39,893 bases of DNA from Streptomyces aureus (GTDB lineage: Bacteria; Actinomycetota; Actinomycetes; Streptomycetales; Streptomycetaceae): positions 1 to 39,893 of the forward strand of contig NZ_LIPQ01000287.1 in assembly GCF_001418135.1 (NCBI RefSeq), in the 5' to 3' direction. Position 1 is the stretch's first letter; every line of letters begins with the position of its first letter. Below the pieces are notes generated by a model. That model saw only the letters and a list, made by a program, of their open reading frames with translations. It searched no databases and was not told the origin of the DNA. The position numbers were made by a program, and so were the translations under genes. Below, in pieces: positions 5,332 through 39,893 of this stretch.

Positions 5332-5997
5332 TCAGGATGCGAAGAGGCGGACGGGCCAGGACGCGTGCTGTTCGGCGGTGATGTCGAGGAGCGGCGCGGA
5401 GGCCGCGGGCAGGGCGTCGACGCCCTGCCGGGCGGCGCGCGCCGCTTCCTCGGCGACCAGGTCCATGGCGGGGGCGAGGCGGGCGAGGACGGCGGTGGCC
5501 TGGAAGGGGTCCAGACTCAGCAGCCGGACCGTGGCGGTGGCGGGACCGCTGACGGTCTCGTACGCGACGCAGTGCGCGGCGTCCTCGGGGCCGAGTCCGG
5601 CGGCGCGGGCGGCGACGCCCAGGACGACGGGCTGATGGGCGCCGCGCGGGAAGGCGGTGGCGAGCGCGTCGAGTTCGGCGCACGGCCAAGTGGCGCGCGC
5701 CGCCCGCATCATCTGCCGGCCGAGCTTGCGGGCGGCGGCGCGCAGGGCGGGCGAGGGGGTGCGGGCGTCGGCGGCCGCGTCGAGTTCACCCGGGTCGAGT
5801 CCGTGCGCGGCTCCGGCGGCGAGTGCGGCGGAGGTGAGTCCGGTGGTGTGCAGCCGGCCCCGGCAGAAGGCTTCGAGTCCGGACGCGTCCTTGATGCGGC
5901 CGGCCTTGACGGCGGCCTCGGCGCCGCCGGAGTGGGCGTGCCCGCCGGCGGGGAACCGCCCGTCGGCGAGCACCAGGAGTGCGGCGCGACTCGCCAT
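5332..5997 (-). CDS. ureF: Urease accessory protein UreF
   Basis: 221 residues. UreF is the helical accessory protein that bridges UreD and the UreG GTPase and controls GTP hydrolysis in the maturation complex. Typical marks are the start [25 protein letters not shown], with the conserved FPxGxxxHSGG pattern, and a C-terminal half with [11 protein letters not shown]-type helices. The ATG at 5997 shares its A with the TGA of ureC (TGATG), so translation is coupled. A much longer open frame continues upstream of this ATG, but it only mirrors ureC and is not coding. Confidence 0.92.
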
Positions 5998-7718
5998 CAG
6001 AAGAGGAAGTAGCGCTGGGCCATGGGCAGTTCGGCGGCGGGGGCGGGTTCTACCGCTTCGCCGTCGATCGTGACCGTGAAGGTGTCGGCGTCGACCTCGA
6101 CCCGGGGCATGGCGTCGTTCTCCCGCATGTCCGCCTTGGACACCCGGCGGGTGCTGCCGATCGCGGTGAACTCCTTGTGCACGCCGAGGCGCTGCGCGAT
6201 GTCGTCCTCGATCGCCGGCTGGGCGACGAAGTTGACCGAGCCGGCCGCCGCCGCCTTGCCGAGCGCGCCGAACATCGGCCGGGGCAGGACGGGTTGGGGG
6301 GTGGGGATGGAGGCGTTGGCGTCGCCCATCTGCGCGTAGGCGATCTGGCCGCCCTTGAGGACGGCGAGCGGCTTCACCCCGAAGAAGGCGGGCTCCCACA
6401 GCACCAGGTCGGCGAGCTTGCCGGGTTCGACGGAGCCGATGAGGTGGTCCATGCCCTGGGCGACGGCCGGGTTGATCGTGTACTTGGCGACGTAGCGGCG
6501 GGCGCGGTGGTTGTCGGCGCGGCCGTCCCCGGGCAGGGCGCCACGCCGCTTCTTCATGACGTGGGCGGTCTGCCAGGTGCGCATGACCACCTCGCCGATG
6601 CGGCCCATGGCCTGGGAGTCGGAGGAGATGATCGAGATGGCGCCCAGGTCGTGGAGGACGTCCTCGGCGGCGATGGTGGAGGGCCGGATCCGGGACTCGG
6701 CGAAGGCGAGGTCCTCGGGGACGGCCGGGTTGAGGTGGTGGCAGACCATCAGCATGTCGAGGTGTTCCTCGATGGTGTTGACGGTGTGCGGCCGGGTCGG
6801 GTTGGTCGAGCTGGGCAGGATGTACGGCTCCGAGACCACCGTGATGATGTCGGGCGCGTGCCCGCCGCCGGCGCCCTCCGTGTGGTACGCGTGGACGGTG
6901 CGCCCGGCGATGGCGGCGAGGGTGTCGCCGACGAAGCCGGCCTCGTTCAGGGTGTCGGTGTGGATGGCGAGCTGGGCACCCGTCTCCTCGCACACGCCCA
7001 GGCAGGCGTCGATGACGGCGGGGGTGGCACCCCAGTCCTCGTGGATCTTGAATCCGAGTGCCCCGCCGCGCAGTTGGGAGTGCATGGCCTCCCGGGACAT
7101 GGTGTTGCCCTTGCCGAGCAGACCGATGTTGACGGGGAAGGTGTCGAGGGCCTCGAACATCCTGGCCGTGTGCCAGGGGCCGGGGGTGACCGTGGTCGCC
7201 TTGGTGCCCTCGGCCGGTCCCGTGCCGCCGCCGACGAGGGTGGTGACGCCGGTGGCGAGGGCCTGCTCGACGACGGTCGGCGAGATGAAGTGGACATGGG
7301 CGTCGACGGCGCCGGCGGTGACGATCCTGCCGTTGCCGACGATGATCTCGGTCTCGGGGCCGATCACGAGGCCGGGGTGGACGCCGTCCATGGTGTCGGG
7401 GTTTCCGGCCTTGCCGAGGGCGGTGATCCGGCCGTCCCGGATGCCGATGTCGGCCTTGACGACGCCCCAGTGGTCGATGATCACGGCGCCGGTGATCACG
7501 GTGTCGGGGGCGCCCTCGGCGCGGGTGGTGCGGGCCTGGCCCATGGACTCGCGGATGACCTTGCCGCCGCCGAAGACGGCTTCGTCGCCGGCGCGGCCGG
7601 GGCCGCCGCTGCGGTCCTCCTCGATCTCGACGAGGAGATCGGTGTCGGCGAGCCGGACGCGGTCGCCGGTGGTGGGGCCGAACAGGTCGGCGTAGACGGC
7701 GCGGTGCAGGTCAGGCAT
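5997..7718 (-). CDS. ureC: Urease alpha subunit (catalytic)
   Basis: 573 residues, full length. Hydrolyses urea to ammonia and carbamate at a dinuclear nickel centre in the cytoplasm. The whole active site can be read: HVH in DAHVHFISP, the carbamylated Lys in [10 protein letters not shown], His in AIHTDTLNE, His in [13 protein letters not shown], the flap Cys-His in MVCHHL, and the nickel-ligand Asp in SSDSQAMGR. The ATG at 7718 follows GAGGGGG and overlaps ureB by eight bases. Nothing suggests loss of function. Confidence 0.97.
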
Positions 7719-8106
7719 GGTCGGCCCCCTCGGCCTCGGTGGGCTCGTCGGCCCGGTCGGTCGCGTGGCCGGTCGGGTGGTCGGTCGCGTGGCCGGTCGG
7801 GTCGAGCGGCCCCGCCGTACCGCCGCGCAGGCCGGGCACGATCCGGCGGCCGGCGAGCGGAACGAGTTCGACCTCGACGGGGATGCCCGGCTCGAAGCGG
7901 ACGGCGGTGCCGGCGGCGATGTGCAGCCGCTGCCCGTGCGCGGCGGCGCGATCGAAGTCCAGGCCGGGGTTGACTTCGGCGAAGTGGTAGTGGGAGCCGA
8001 CCTGGACGGGCCGGTCGGCGGCGTTCAGCACGGTCAGACGCGTGACGGGGCGCCCCTCGTTGAGGGCGACGGGGCCGTCCGCGTACAGGATCTCTCCGGG
8101 GATCAT
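7711..8106 (-). CDS. ureB: Urease beta subunit
   Basis: 131 residues. The conserved core ([11 protein letters not shown] - [18 protein letters not shown] - GTAVRFEPG - [10 protein letters not shown]) occupies roughly the first 95 residues; it packs against UreC and carries no nickel ligand. The remaining about 35 residues form an extended tail rich in Thr, His, Asp and Glu that contains a tandem repeat, so the protein is longer than the usual 100-105 residues. The ATG at 8106 lies 13 bases after ureA and the stop falls inside ureC. Confidence 0.95.
7757..7804. repeat. 24-bp in-frame tandem duplication in ureB
   Basis: Two copies (7757-7780, 7781-7804) differ at one base. On the minus strand they encode two near-identical 8-residue units of the type [16 protein letters not shown] in the C-terminal tail of UreB. 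Confidence 0.85.
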
Positions 8107-8119
8107 CGGCGCGGCCCGT

Positions 8120-8422
<303 letters not shown>

Positions 8423-8723
8423 TCTTCCACCTCACAGTCGTCGACCGGGACACCCGGACAGCTGCGGACCCTACCGACCGTCAACACCTTGTTGAACTGC
8501 GGAGATGCGGCTCGCGGCCAGACATTGCACGTTAGGGCGGAAGTTTTTCCGGCTCGTTAACTGCGGCTTTGCTCTTTCATGATCGTCGTGCCGGATCGAC
8601 CGACCTGGACATCGGGCCGCGCCGCGACAGAGGACCGGGAGGTATACGGAGCGGGCGTGCCGAGCACACCGGAACCCCTGCCGACCGCCGCGGGCGCGGC
8701 GGCGGGCGGGTCGGCCGACAGGA
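8423..8723. other. Intergenic region upstream of the urease operon
   Basis: About 300 bases without a credible gene; the forward frames here lack a ribosome site and any family resemblance. It must hold the urease promoter, reading leftwards. A TTGACG at 8476-8481 (minus strand) is the best -35-like word, but no good -10 lies at the right distance. I see no riboswitch or operator I can name. Confidence 0.4.
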
Positions 8724-8745
8724 CCTGGGCCCGACCGGGCCTAGG
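8724..8745 (-). terminator. Hairpin at the end of the antitoxin gene
   Basis: A 9-bp stem (CCTGGGCCC against GGGCCTAGG, one G-U pair, loop GACC) overlaps the TAG stop of the antitoxin gene. No T tract. Confidence 0.45.
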
Positions 8746-9019
8746 AGACGCCGGGCTCGCGGTGGTGGGCGGCGATGCCGAAGCGGCGCTGTTCGCCGGT
8801 AGCGGAGTCCAGGGAGTGGAGGCCGGAGACCGAGCTGATCACCTGCTCGTCGGCGGGCTTCTCGGCCGCCTCGAGTTCCTCCAGGTCAGCGGCGGAGACC
8901 AGGGCGACCAGCGGCTTCCCGTGGCGGGTGACGACGACGCGCTCACCGCCGTACACGACGCGGTTGATCAGGTCGGCGAGCTCGGCTCGCGCTTGCGTCA
9001 CCGGGATCTCGTAGGTCAT
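8741..9019 (-). CDS. Type II antitoxin of the Phd/YefM family, no toxin gene beside it
   Basis: 92 residues from the ATG at 9019, which has GGGGAG upstream. The N-terminal half is a clear Phd/YefM fold: [48 protein letters not shown], normally a DNA-binding dimer domain. The C-terminal 35 residues ([11 protein letters not shown]...) would be the toxin-wrapping tail. No RelE/YoeB, Doc or PIN gene follows: the next gene leftwards is ureA after 318 bases. It is therefore an orphan antitoxin or a stand-alone repressor. It is divergent from the ClpP-like gene, with TGTAC repeats between the two starts. Confidence 0.88.
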
Positions 9020-9036
9020 GCTCCCCATCTTACGGG

Positions 9037-9062
9037 CTGTACGTCCTGTACATTTTTTACAG
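9037..9062. promoter_or_regulatory. TGTAC-repeat operator between the antitoxin and clpP-like genes
   Basis: The 58-base divergent spacer has two direct CTGTAC words (9037-9042, 9046-9051), a TGTACA core (9047-9052) and the inverted repeat CTGTA-N7-TACAG (9046-9062). TGTACA is the core bound by E. coli YefM at the yefM-yoeB operator. A minus-strand TAAGAT (9032-9027) may be the antitoxin -10; TACATT (9049-9054) may be the -10 for the clpP-like gene. Binding here is inferred. Confidence 0.6.
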
Positions 9063-9077
9063 ATGGAGGTACCCGTC

Positions 9078-9701
9078 ATGGATGCTCGCCACGTCCTGCC
9101 CGAGTTCACGGAGCGCACCAGCTACGGAACCCGGACCCTCGACCCCTACTCGAAGCTCCTCTCGTCCCGGATCGTCTTCCTCGGCACCCCGATCGACGAG
9201 ACGTCGGCCAACGACGTCATCGCCCAGCTCCTGTATCTGGACCACGCGGGCCCCGAGCAGGACATCTCGCTCTACATCAACTCCCCCGGCGGCTCGATCA
9301 GCGCCATGACCGCGATCTACGACACGATGCGCTCGCTCCATTGCGACGTGGAGACCACCTGCCTGGGCCAGGCCGTCTCCACCGCCGCCGTGCTGCTCTC
9401 CGCCGGCACCCCGGGCAAGCGCATGATGCTGCCGGGCGCCCGGATCACCCTGCGTCAGCCCGCCATGGACGAGCCCCTCCAGGGCCAGCCGAGCGACCTC
9501 GACATCCACGCCCGTGAACTGCTCCGCCTCCGCGCGCTGATGGCGGGGATGCTCACCGAGCACACGGGGCGGGACCGCGAACGCGTCGACGCCGACCTCG
9601 ACCGCCTGACGGTCCTGGACGCGCCGGCGGCGGTCGCGTACGGCCTGGTGGACCACGTGATCACGAGCCGGCGCGCGGGCGTCGGCGGGACGGCGAGGTG
9701 A
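9078..9701 (+). CDS. ClpP-like protein with degenerate catalytic triad
   Basis: 207 residues from the ATG at 9078, which has a near-perfect GGAGGT site seven bases upstream. The ClpP fold is unmistakable ([67 protein letters not shown]). Ser101 is at the nucleophile position. Where ClpP has His in the HQP motif this protein has Arg126 (RITLRQP), and alignment to E. coli ClpP around RDRFLSAPEAVEYG puts Leu177 at the catalytic Asp. Two of three catalytic residues are thus missing, as in ClpR-type subunits. It may form mixed rings with active ClpP subunits encoded elsewhere. It is followed after seven bases by a small gene. Confidence 0.9.
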
Positions 9702-9708
9702 GCGGGCC

Positions 9709-10014
9709 GTGGTTCCCGAGCTGCCGCCGCTGCCCGCCCTGACCCGCGCCGAGAGTGAACTCGTCGACGCCTACCTCGAAGTGGTCGACCTGCTGGGGAA
9801 GATCAATCCATCCAGGGGTACGCATACCTATGGCGCACTGCGCGCGGCACAAGCCCTGGTGGGGCGGGCGGAGTCGCTTCTCCAAGCCCTGACGCTCATG
9901 CATATGCGGGGCGAGAGCGAGGTGCACGCGGACACACTGGCACGCGCGCTCAGGGTGTTGGACGGCGAGCGCCGAGCCGACCGCGTCACCGTCCCGCGCA
10001 CTCGGGCGAGTTGA
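9709..10014 (+). CDS. Small helical protein of unknown function, co-transcribed with the clpP-like gene
   Basis: 101 residues from a GTG seven bases after the clpP-like stop; GAGGTGAGCGG provides a ribosome site. No recognised domain. It looks largely alpha-helical (SELVDAYLEVVDLLGKI, ALRAAQALVGRAESLLQALTLMHMRG, TLARALRVLDG) with no signal peptide or membrane segment, and ends in a basic tail. Codon use is like its neighbours. The tight spacing suggests an operon and a possible partner or adaptor role for the ClpP-like protein, which is inference. Confidence 0.65.
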   Translation: MVPELPPLPALTRAESELVDAYLEVVDLLGKINPSRGTHTYGALRAAQALVGRAESLLQALTLMHMRGESEVHADTLARALRVLDGERRADRVTVPRTRAS

Positions 10015-10334
10015 CATTTCCGCGTGTCGTGTCGAGGGCCGGACGGCCGACGCGCACCGCAGAATCGCTCCCCCGTTCGGCGTAGTCGACGAGTCGACAT
10101 ATGTGCCGGGTGAGTTGCACAACAGGTGTACGCATTTGGCGGAATGGGGCGTTCCGTCGCTGGTGCGAGGCTCGTAGGCGAAACCTCTGAAGATCACAAA
10201 GGCTCTCTGTCCACCCGTATGGATCAGTCGTGAGGAGCCTCACATATCGCCGTTTCAGCTCGGATTTCGACCTCGGTGTGGGTCAAGATCCCTGTCGACG
10301 ACAAGCCCCCGCCACCACGGCGGGGCGGTCCGGG
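10015..10334. other. Intergenic region upstream of the riboswitch
   Basis: About 320 bases with no supportable gene on either strand. It should contain the promoter of the riboswitch-controlled cell-wall hydrolase. Seen: a TTGACA at 10011-10016 without a matching -10, a GTCGAC-GA-GTCGAC repeat at about 10085-10098, an interrupted inverted repeat GTGAGG-AG-CCTCAC at 10230-10243, and a TATGGA at 10218-10223. None can be assigned firmly. Confidence 0.4.
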
Positions 10335-38356: not shown

Positions 38357-38379
38357 TTGTCAGTGCCGGGTCCTAACGT
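38357..38379 (+). promoter_or_regulatory. RecA-NDp (PafBC-type) DNA-damage promoter of the SWIM gene
   Basis: TTGTCAGTG (38357-38365), exactly eight bases, then TAACGT (38374-38379): a full match to TTGTCRGTG-N8-TAnnnT. The ATG at 38387 follows seven bases after the -10, so the transcript is probably leaderless. Confidence 0.8.
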
Positions 38380-38386
38380 CGTTTCC

Positions 38387-39796
38387 ATGACGCGATCCGT
38401 ACAGGCACTCGCCTATGTCCGCCCTTCCGCGCTGGAGTCGACAGGCTCCGGCCGGCTGCTCGGTCTGGAGACGGCGGGGGGTCTGACGCCCCGGGGGGCG
38501 GAGGCCCATCCCCGCTTCTTCGCCGGTTTCCTGGCCTCGCCGCAGGTCGCCGCCCGCGGTCTGCTGGCGGTCGCCGACGTGGCCGCGGCCCGCTACCACC
38601 AGCGGATACGGCCGGGGTCGCTCGACCCGGTGGTGACGGGGAACGGGGACCGGCTGCGGTTCGAGTCGTTCTCCGGCTGTGGCGGGGTGTACGCGCGGCT
38701 GGACGTGCTCGACGAGGGGCTCGGCGGTACGGAGACGGGCCACGGAACGACCAATGTCGACGTCAACAACCCGCTGCGTGAGGCGCTGTCGCGGATGACG
38801 GGGGACGATCCGCTGCACCTCCGGGTCGGTCCGGAGGAGATGGCGGTGACCACGCTCGCGGGGGCCGTCGTGGAGAAGAAGGTCCCGCTGCCGGACCGCT
38901 GGCTGCGGGGCTTCGCCGAGGCGCAGGTCGCCTCGGCCCGGTTCGATCTGCGGGCCGAGCTGAGCGGGGCGGAGGCCGTCCGTTTCCTCCGGTCCCTGCC
39001 GCGCAACCAGGCCCGTGGGCGCGGGCCGATGTGGGTCACGCAGTCCGGCCGGACCCTGCGGCCGACGACCCGGCCCGGCGCGGGCGCGGTGTGTCTGCCG
39101 GGGCCCGACCGGCTCGTCGCCCTGGAGCGGGTGCTGCGGCACGCGACGGGGCTCCGGGTGTACGGGCCGGTGCCGGACGGCACCCTGGCCACGGCGAGCG
39201 CCTGGGAGGTGGTGCTCCCGGGCATGCGGCTCACGCTGACCCTCTCGCCCGACCCCGCGCGGGGCTTCTCCGGCGAGGGAGGGGTCCTGGAGGCCCTCGC
39301 GACGGAGGAGGCCGCACAGGACGCCGAGCTGGTCGCGGTCCTCCTCGCCTGGGAGCCGAGGATCGACCCGGCCGATCTCGCGGCGCAGGCCGGGCTCACG
39401 ATCGACCGGGTGCGGGCGGCGCTGACCCGGCTCGGCACGGCCGGGCGCGTGGGGTACGACGTGGCGGACGCGGCGTACTTCCACCGGGAGCTGCCGTACG
39501 ACGCGGACCGCGCCGAGCGGCACAACCCGCGCCTGGTGAGCGCCCGTCGGCTGGTCGCGGAGGGCGCGGTGACCGTCGAGGGCCCTCTGGCGACGGTGGC
39601 CTCGGGCGAACGGCGCTACCGGGTGCGGGAGTCGGACGGGGTGCTGAGCTGCACCTGCCAGTGGTGGGCCGACTACCGGGGCCGGCGGGGCCCGTGCAAG
39701 CACGCGCTCGCGGTCCGGATGGTCCGGCGGGGCGCGAGGCCCGAGCCGGTCGGTGCCGGGGACGACGGCACGGCGGTCGCCGGAGCGGCGCGATGA
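38387..39796 (+). CDS. SWIM zinc-finger domain protein
   Basis: 469 residues from the ATG at 38387. The zinc finger lies near the C-terminus: CTC (in VLSCTCQWW) and CKH (in GPCKHALAV) form CxC-Xn-CxH. The long N-terminal part (about 400 residues) is unlike nucleases or ATPases I know and is specific to this actinobacterial group; a LTIDRVRAALTRLGTAGRVGYDV segment before the finger looks like a small winged helix. SWIM domains bind DNA or proteins. The ATGA overlap with the next gene starts an operon. In related genomes, from memory, such genes stand with MoxR-type AAA+ and VWA genes. The promoter indicates induction by DNA damage. Confidence 0.88.
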   Translation: MTRSVQALAYVRPSALESTGSGRLLGLETAGGLTPRGAEAHPRFFAGFLASPQVAARGLLAVADVAAARYHQRIRPGSLDPVVTGNGDRLRFESFSGCGGVYARLDVLDEGLGGTETGHGTTNVDVNNPLREALSRMTGDDPLHLRVGPEEMAVTTLAGAVVEKKVPLPDRWLRGFAEAQVASARFDLRAELSGAEAVRFLRSLPRNQARGRGPMWVTQSGRTLRPTTRPGAGAVCLPGPDRLVALERVLRHATGLRVYGPVPDGTLATASAWEVVLPGMRLTLTLSPDPARGFSGEGGVLEALATEEAAQDAELVAVLLAWEPRIDPADLAAQAGLTIDRVRAALTRLGTAGRVGYDVADAAYFHRELPYDADRAERHNPRLVSARRLVAEGAVTVEGPLATVASGERRYRVRESDGVLSCTCQWWADYRGRRGPCKHALAVRMVRRGARPEPVGAGDDGTAVAGAAR

Positions 39797-39893
39797 CGGG
39801 GAGCGCCGGGGCGACGGTGGACGGTGGGGGGACCGAGGTGGGGAACAGCCTGGTGAACAGGGTGATGGACAGCATGATGACCAAGGTGAGGAG
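39793..39893 (+). CDS. Start of the next gene of the SWIM operon (partial)
   Basis: ATG at 39793 overlaps the SWIM stop (ATGA). The 33 visible codons read MTGSAGATVDGGGTEVGNSL and onwards to VNRVMDSMMTKV, with no stop before the window edge. Too short to assign. The overlap argues for real translation and coupling to the SWIM gene. Confidence 0.6.
   Translation, partial: MTGSAGATVDGGGTEVGNSLVNRVMDSMMTKVR

Follow-up and report, generated by a model that had tools for sequence, protein, structure and literature searches.

The end of a Streptomyces aureus contig carries a gene for a SWIM zinc-finger protein, and the sequence preceding it raises the question of whether this gene leads an operon switched on by DNA damage and, if so, what the operon does. 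The window, i.e., the whole 39,893 nt stretch of DNA analysed, comprises contig C209 in full; the genome (7.92 Mb) is assembled in many fragments. As it ends at 39893, the operon was completed from other contigs and from relatives. The features of the locus are listed in Table 1.

Table 1. Features of the SWIM-led operon in the window.
Feature	Position	Strand	Basis
RecA-NDp/PafBC-type promoter	38357..38379	+	exact consensus, orthologue conservation, genome counts
-26-type element TTGTCAGTG	38357-38365	+	promoter part
8-nt spacer CCGGGTCC between TTGTCAGTG and TAACGT		+	promoter part
-10 element TAACGT	38374-38379	+	promoter part
7-nt gap CGTTTCC and ATG start (38387)	38380..38389	+	sequence; ATG in 80/80 orthologues
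SWIM zinc-finger protein P0001, 469 aa	38387..39796	+	translation; Pfam SWIM; PADLOC SWIM_XIII
Predicted PCNA-like clamp region, residues 1-300	38387..39286	+	hhalign to PCNA profile
Best-matched clamp part, residues 84-171	38636-38899	+	hhalign
Winged-helix region, residues 305-391	39299..39559	+	weak DprA_WH, GntR and transcriptional-regulator matches; model helices
SWIM motif C422-x-C424-x12-C437-x-H439-x-x-A442	39650..39712	+	sequence
Start of DUF6493 partner gene	39793..39893	+	ATGA overlap with SWIM stop; contig end after 33 codons

The promoter TTGTCAGTG-CCGGGTCC-TAACGT shows no mismatches to the RecA-NDp consensus TTGTCRGTG-N8-TANNNT and is the sole match in the window at one mismatch or fewer (chance expectation 0.02). 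The first-pass annotation had described an exact consensus seven nucleotides before the ATG, and both statements hold, with CGTTTCC lying between TAACGT and the ATG. The -10 element ends 6-7 nt before the ATG, which implies a leaderless transcript, and transcription would start at or beside the first codon of the SWIM gene. The TTG at 38357 was considered as an upstream start and rejected, since the spacing of the site alternates between -29 and -30 and the frame from this TTG is lost.

The site is strongly conserved. It was found at -29/-30 from the ATG in all 80 named Streptomyces orthologues, 74 of which have an exact copy and six a single mismatch, always in the first T; the ATG itself is common to all 80. 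The 30 orthologues examined in the genome collection also have the site at this position without exception (27 exact). Across the 80 Streptomyces loci, the TGTC.GTG and TA...T columns hold 1.9 to 2.0 bits, and the columns more than 10 bases upstream of the site mostly 0.1 to 0.5 bits. Relatives from other genera and families, with 58-62% identical proteins, show the same site position, mostly with one mismatch; they include order-level relatives, Nonomuraea and another family of the phylum. The relative G306 has three mismatches. In plasmid and proteobacterial copies of the SWIM gene the promoter is lost or absent, and no LexA-type sites were seen by eye before the proteobacterial copies.

The partner gene encodes a protein with DUF6493/DUF7824/DUF7825 domains, and its remaining 602 codons lie on another contig of the same genome (G000:C202, minus strand, 6883-8691). 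DUF6493 is found downstream in 79 of the 80 Streptomyces loci (at the remaining one the contig stops short), and the 4-nt (-4) overlap of the two genes recurs in 74 of 78 orthologous pairs. Most Streptomyces have the pair at one chromosomal address, flanked on one side by a PhoD gene and on the other by the gene of a membrane/GNAT-type protein. The AlphaFold2 model of the DUF6493 protein, built with 48 sequences, is nearly all helical (mean pLDDT 88, pTM 0.80), and its best PDB matches are HEAT-type solenoids such as FANCI, condensin, importin and SF3B1, at E ~1e-3 and with no global superposition. The model argues strongly for an alpha solenoid of HEAT/ARM type that stands outside these families.

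The SWIM finger is the only Pfam domain of the leading protein over the cut-off (20.6 vs 19.6 bits). The protein is also matched by the PADLOC model SWIM_XIII, an accessory of type XIII retrons, with an E-value of 1.2e-51 and over profile positions ~102-504 of 509. The finger has the form CXC...CXHXXA described for Shu2/SWS1 of eukaryotic recombination (PMC6316741). The likeness to Shu2/SWS1 is one of motif form: the window protein pairs with a solenoid, and a RAD51 paralogue is neither known as its partner nor present in the operon. No viral relatives of the SWIM protein were found, a PHROGs search gave nothing useful and sequence comparison with solved structures returned no convincing relatives. 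The AlphaFold model is poor, including the clamp region (mean pLDDT 54), and a Foldseek search with it gave no significant match.

The homology to SWIM_XIII leads to the main rival account, according to which the pair is a stand-alone conflict module, directed against phages or plasmids and akin to the retron accessory, with the damage promoter serving as an alarm and the SWIM protein and solenoid as sensor or effector. The retron layout consists of a reverse transcriptase, WHSWIM and ARM. The relatives of the window operon differ in that no reverse transcriptase was seen among the genes identified beside the operon in locus L053 and in the annotated plasmid loci. The DUF6493 protein, in spite of its HEAT/ARM-like model, matches no PADLOC model for the ARM-type partner of retrons. 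The near-full-length SWIM_XIII match speaks for a conflict module, as does a patchy distribution. A near-full-length SWIM copy is present in 38 of 101 sampled Streptomyces genomes, so the module, missing in most of them, does not belong to core repair; short or interrupted remnants of the gene (G068:C1:1732138-1732747; also in G080, G070, G041 and G027) suggest repeated loss. Copies also lie on plasmids, one beside an integrase and a VapC pair and one near a Fic gene, and proteobacterial plasmids have similar pairs. In S. lavendulae the motif moreover precedes defence-type genes (type I-C cas3 and cas5, a STAND NTPase). Against this account, the pair keeps one conserved chromosomal address in most Streptomyces rather than an island, and searches with Pfam and PADLOC revealed no recognisable toxic or nuclease domain in the operon proteins. 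The examined neighbours, among which no reverse transcriptase was seen, likewise count against it. A conflict role is the less likely reading, though still to be reckoned with.

The regulatory reading was assessed by motif counts across genomes. For the window's genome the count of exact motifs was 21, against 0 for the reversed-pattern control; the corresponding figures were 150 vs 2 for six other Streptomyces genomes and 19 vs 0 for S. lavendulae CCM 3239. In the window's genome it precedes recA, ruvC and dnaX, identified by reading translations, and, by Pfam, a dnaN paralogue, ogt (O6-methylguanine methyltransferase), two macrodomain genes, a gene for a WGR protein and others. Translations read from other Streptomyces genomes add homologues of ung (uracil-DNA glycosylase), uvrA, rarA, xth (exonuclease III) and polA (DNA polymerase I). 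The genes for PafB, PafC (HTH_PafC, 2.5e-31) and PafA (Pup_ligase, 3.2e-167) lie side by side on contig C697 of the window's genome. The consensus, the spacing, the PafBC genes and the co-targets recA and repair genes are those of the RecA-NDp/PafBC regulon of mycobacteria and other actinobacteria; the SWIM operon is not among the members described in the literature found, and its assignment here is sequence-based. In a sample of 100 genomes of the phylum, at least three sites were found in only eight, all with a strong PafC HTH match. In many genomes with PafC matches, exact sites were not in excess, and the consensus in its exact form therefore seems to hold for only a part of the phylum.

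That the motif instead serves another regulator, or is constitutive and not damage-inducible, is improbable. This alternative draws on a study of S. venezuelae whose first search for the PafBC motif of M. smegmatis reportedly showed no conservation and which left the existence of the response open (PMC9380542). It is opposed by the strong representation of repair genes among the motif targets, by the PafBC locus, by the confinement of genomes with at least three sites to those with a strong PafC match in the phylum sample, and by SCO6735, a Streptomyces gene with a RecA-NDp promoter that is upregulated 5-fold after UV (PMC5087735). Taken with the exactness and conservation of the motif, these points make a PafBC-type DNA-damage promoter the best reading of the site, and induction by damage is predicted.

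Some motif-led genes merit separate mention. In S. lavendulae CCM 3239 (NZ_CP024985.1, ~67.8-70.4 kb) exact motifs stand directly before cas3 and cas5 of type I-C (L264 1501-1523 and L265 1501-1523; PADLOC Cas3c 8e-125, Cas5c 6e-58), and second copies of both motif-led genes (L281, L282) lie at the other chromosome end; the CRISPR system in these terminal repeats is possibly damage-inducible. An exact motif in the same species also belongs to a gene (L278 3-1514, minus strand) whose product, an NTPase of STAND/NB-ARC type extended at length at its N-terminus, has a defence-like look and no PADLOC match. In the window's genome, exact motifs accompany genes with little known link to damage, for SMI1/KNR4, WGR-propeller, MFS transporter and DUF4253 proteins (L001, L002, L018 and L020).

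Two further SWIM-type operons of the window's genome have the exact promoter and partners other than DUF6493. The first, on G000:C425 (L015, L139), has the motif 7 nt before the ATG, and in an orthologous locus (L143 11439-12815, minus strand) the partner is DUF5691; the zinc finger of this SWIM protein lies near the N-terminus, and that of the window protein near the C-terminus. The second, on G000:C184 (L007, L140 ~5625-10206, minus strand), encodes, in order, a 188-aa SWIM-like protein that Pfam does not detect but that has a cysteine/histidine cluster, an unknown protein of 464 aa and a MoxR-type AAA_5 ATPase; an ATGA overlap is present. It fits the MoxR idea of the first-pass annotation, which had expected MoxR/VWA genes to follow the SWIM gene in a chaperone or conflict operon, better than the window operon does. 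For the latter, in spite of these same-promoter operons with DUF5691 or a MoxR-type ATPase, the expectation is refuted by the syntenic loci and has practically no chance left, as the operon extended past 39893 yields one partner only, the translationally coupled DUF6493 solenoid. DUF6493 fills this place at all intact Streptomyces loci, with no AAA/VWA gene after it. What survives of the earlier interpretation is the RecA-NDp/PafBC-type promoter of a SWIM-led operon, supported by the conserved site, the genes for PafB, PafC and PafA, and the co-targets recA and other repair genes.

A possible clue to function came from the N-terminal part of the SWIM protein. Sliding clamps were recurrent among the weak Foldseek matches of its model in two libraries, at E ~1; given the poor model these matches prove nothing, but their recurrence prompted a profile test. 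The query profile, built from 63 SWIM proteins, was compared by hhalign with a profile of 11 PCNA sequences, one of them an archaeal sequence entered by hand. The score was 34.4 (P 8e-4, or 4e-4 for residues 1-305), the P-values needing a small correction for the two targets tried, PCNA and DnaN. The best-matched part of the SWIM protein corresponds to PCNA columns 36-131, with 85 columns matched, and on realignment the match covers residues 86-292 and 189 columns, reaching the PCNA end. The reversed PCNA profile scored 15.4 and 200 column-shuffled profiles 13.8 on average (sd 2.8), with a maximum of 31.8 in one shuffle; all 28 unrelated families scored lower (maximum 24.8, P 0.019). The register did not change with query subsets or with the PCNA profile freed of the hand-entered sequence, and P was 5e-4 to 2.3e-3, with 0.0023 for the PCNA sequences taken from databases. 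The second clamp domain alone had no match to the SWIM profile, and bacterial DnaN, the other candidate, was set aside as a weak match (P 0.02-0.06).

The order of secondary-structure elements in the N-terminal region is compatible with PCNA and beta clamps. Unlike these, the region is followed in the same chain by a winged helix and a SWIM finger, and the likeness is one of profiles. A clamp-like region within the first ~300 residues is a supported lead whose chances we put just short of even. A separate observation concerns Haloarcula californiae icosahedral virus 1, where a PCNA-like stretch (L231, 4501-5340; tblastn E 9e-9) forms part of a long ORF with a VP1 annotation.

The reading that we prefer, with a probability of about 0.6, is that of a PafBC-dependent damage promoter of a two-gene, leaderless, coupled operon, whose SWIM and DUF6493 products would act jointly on damaged DNA, most likely in recombination or repair. 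DNA damage would give rise to single-stranded DNA and so to activated PafBC; in mycobacteria, single-stranded DNA activates PafBC, which acts by sigma adaptation (PMC11804915). PafBC would then recruit the housekeeping RNA polymerase to the promoter, with transcription beginning at the SWIM gene's ATG. The SWIM protein, combining the putative PCNA-like region, the winged helix and the Shu2/SWS1-type finger, may act on damaged DNA with the DUF6493 solenoid as its scaffold or clamp-handling partner, and the two would then make up a complex on DNA that serves repair or recombination. The S. venezuelae motif report, the poor model of the clamp region, the Foldseek clamp matches at E ~1, the one high-scoring shuffle, the unmatched second clamp domain, the patchy presence and the promoterless proteobacterial copies were counted against this reading. 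A more far-reaching version is slightly less likely than the clamp region itself. In it, a PCNA-like clamp that carries a winged helix and SWIM finger in the same protein, with a HEAT-type solenoid as partner, makes up a damage-induced alternative clamp system related to the type XIII retron accessory module, and the SWIM protein of that module would likewise be a clamp.

Of the elements described here, the type of promoter, the SWIM domain and the SWIM_XIII family were known before. In the mainly open-access literature searched, no description was found of a stand-alone SWIM-DUF6493 operon that combines a strictly conserved PafBC-type promoter with a possible clamp domain, and an open-access search found no literature on DUF6493 or the retron SWIM accessory. 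The operon offers a strongly conserved and directly testable candidate target of PafBC in a genus for which the existence of such a response was recently left open (PMC9380542). Through it, two uncharacterised proteins with a relationship to a retron accessory become linked to the DNA damage response. Should the region prove to be a clamp, the SWIM protein would represent a second, inducible kind of clamp in bacteria.
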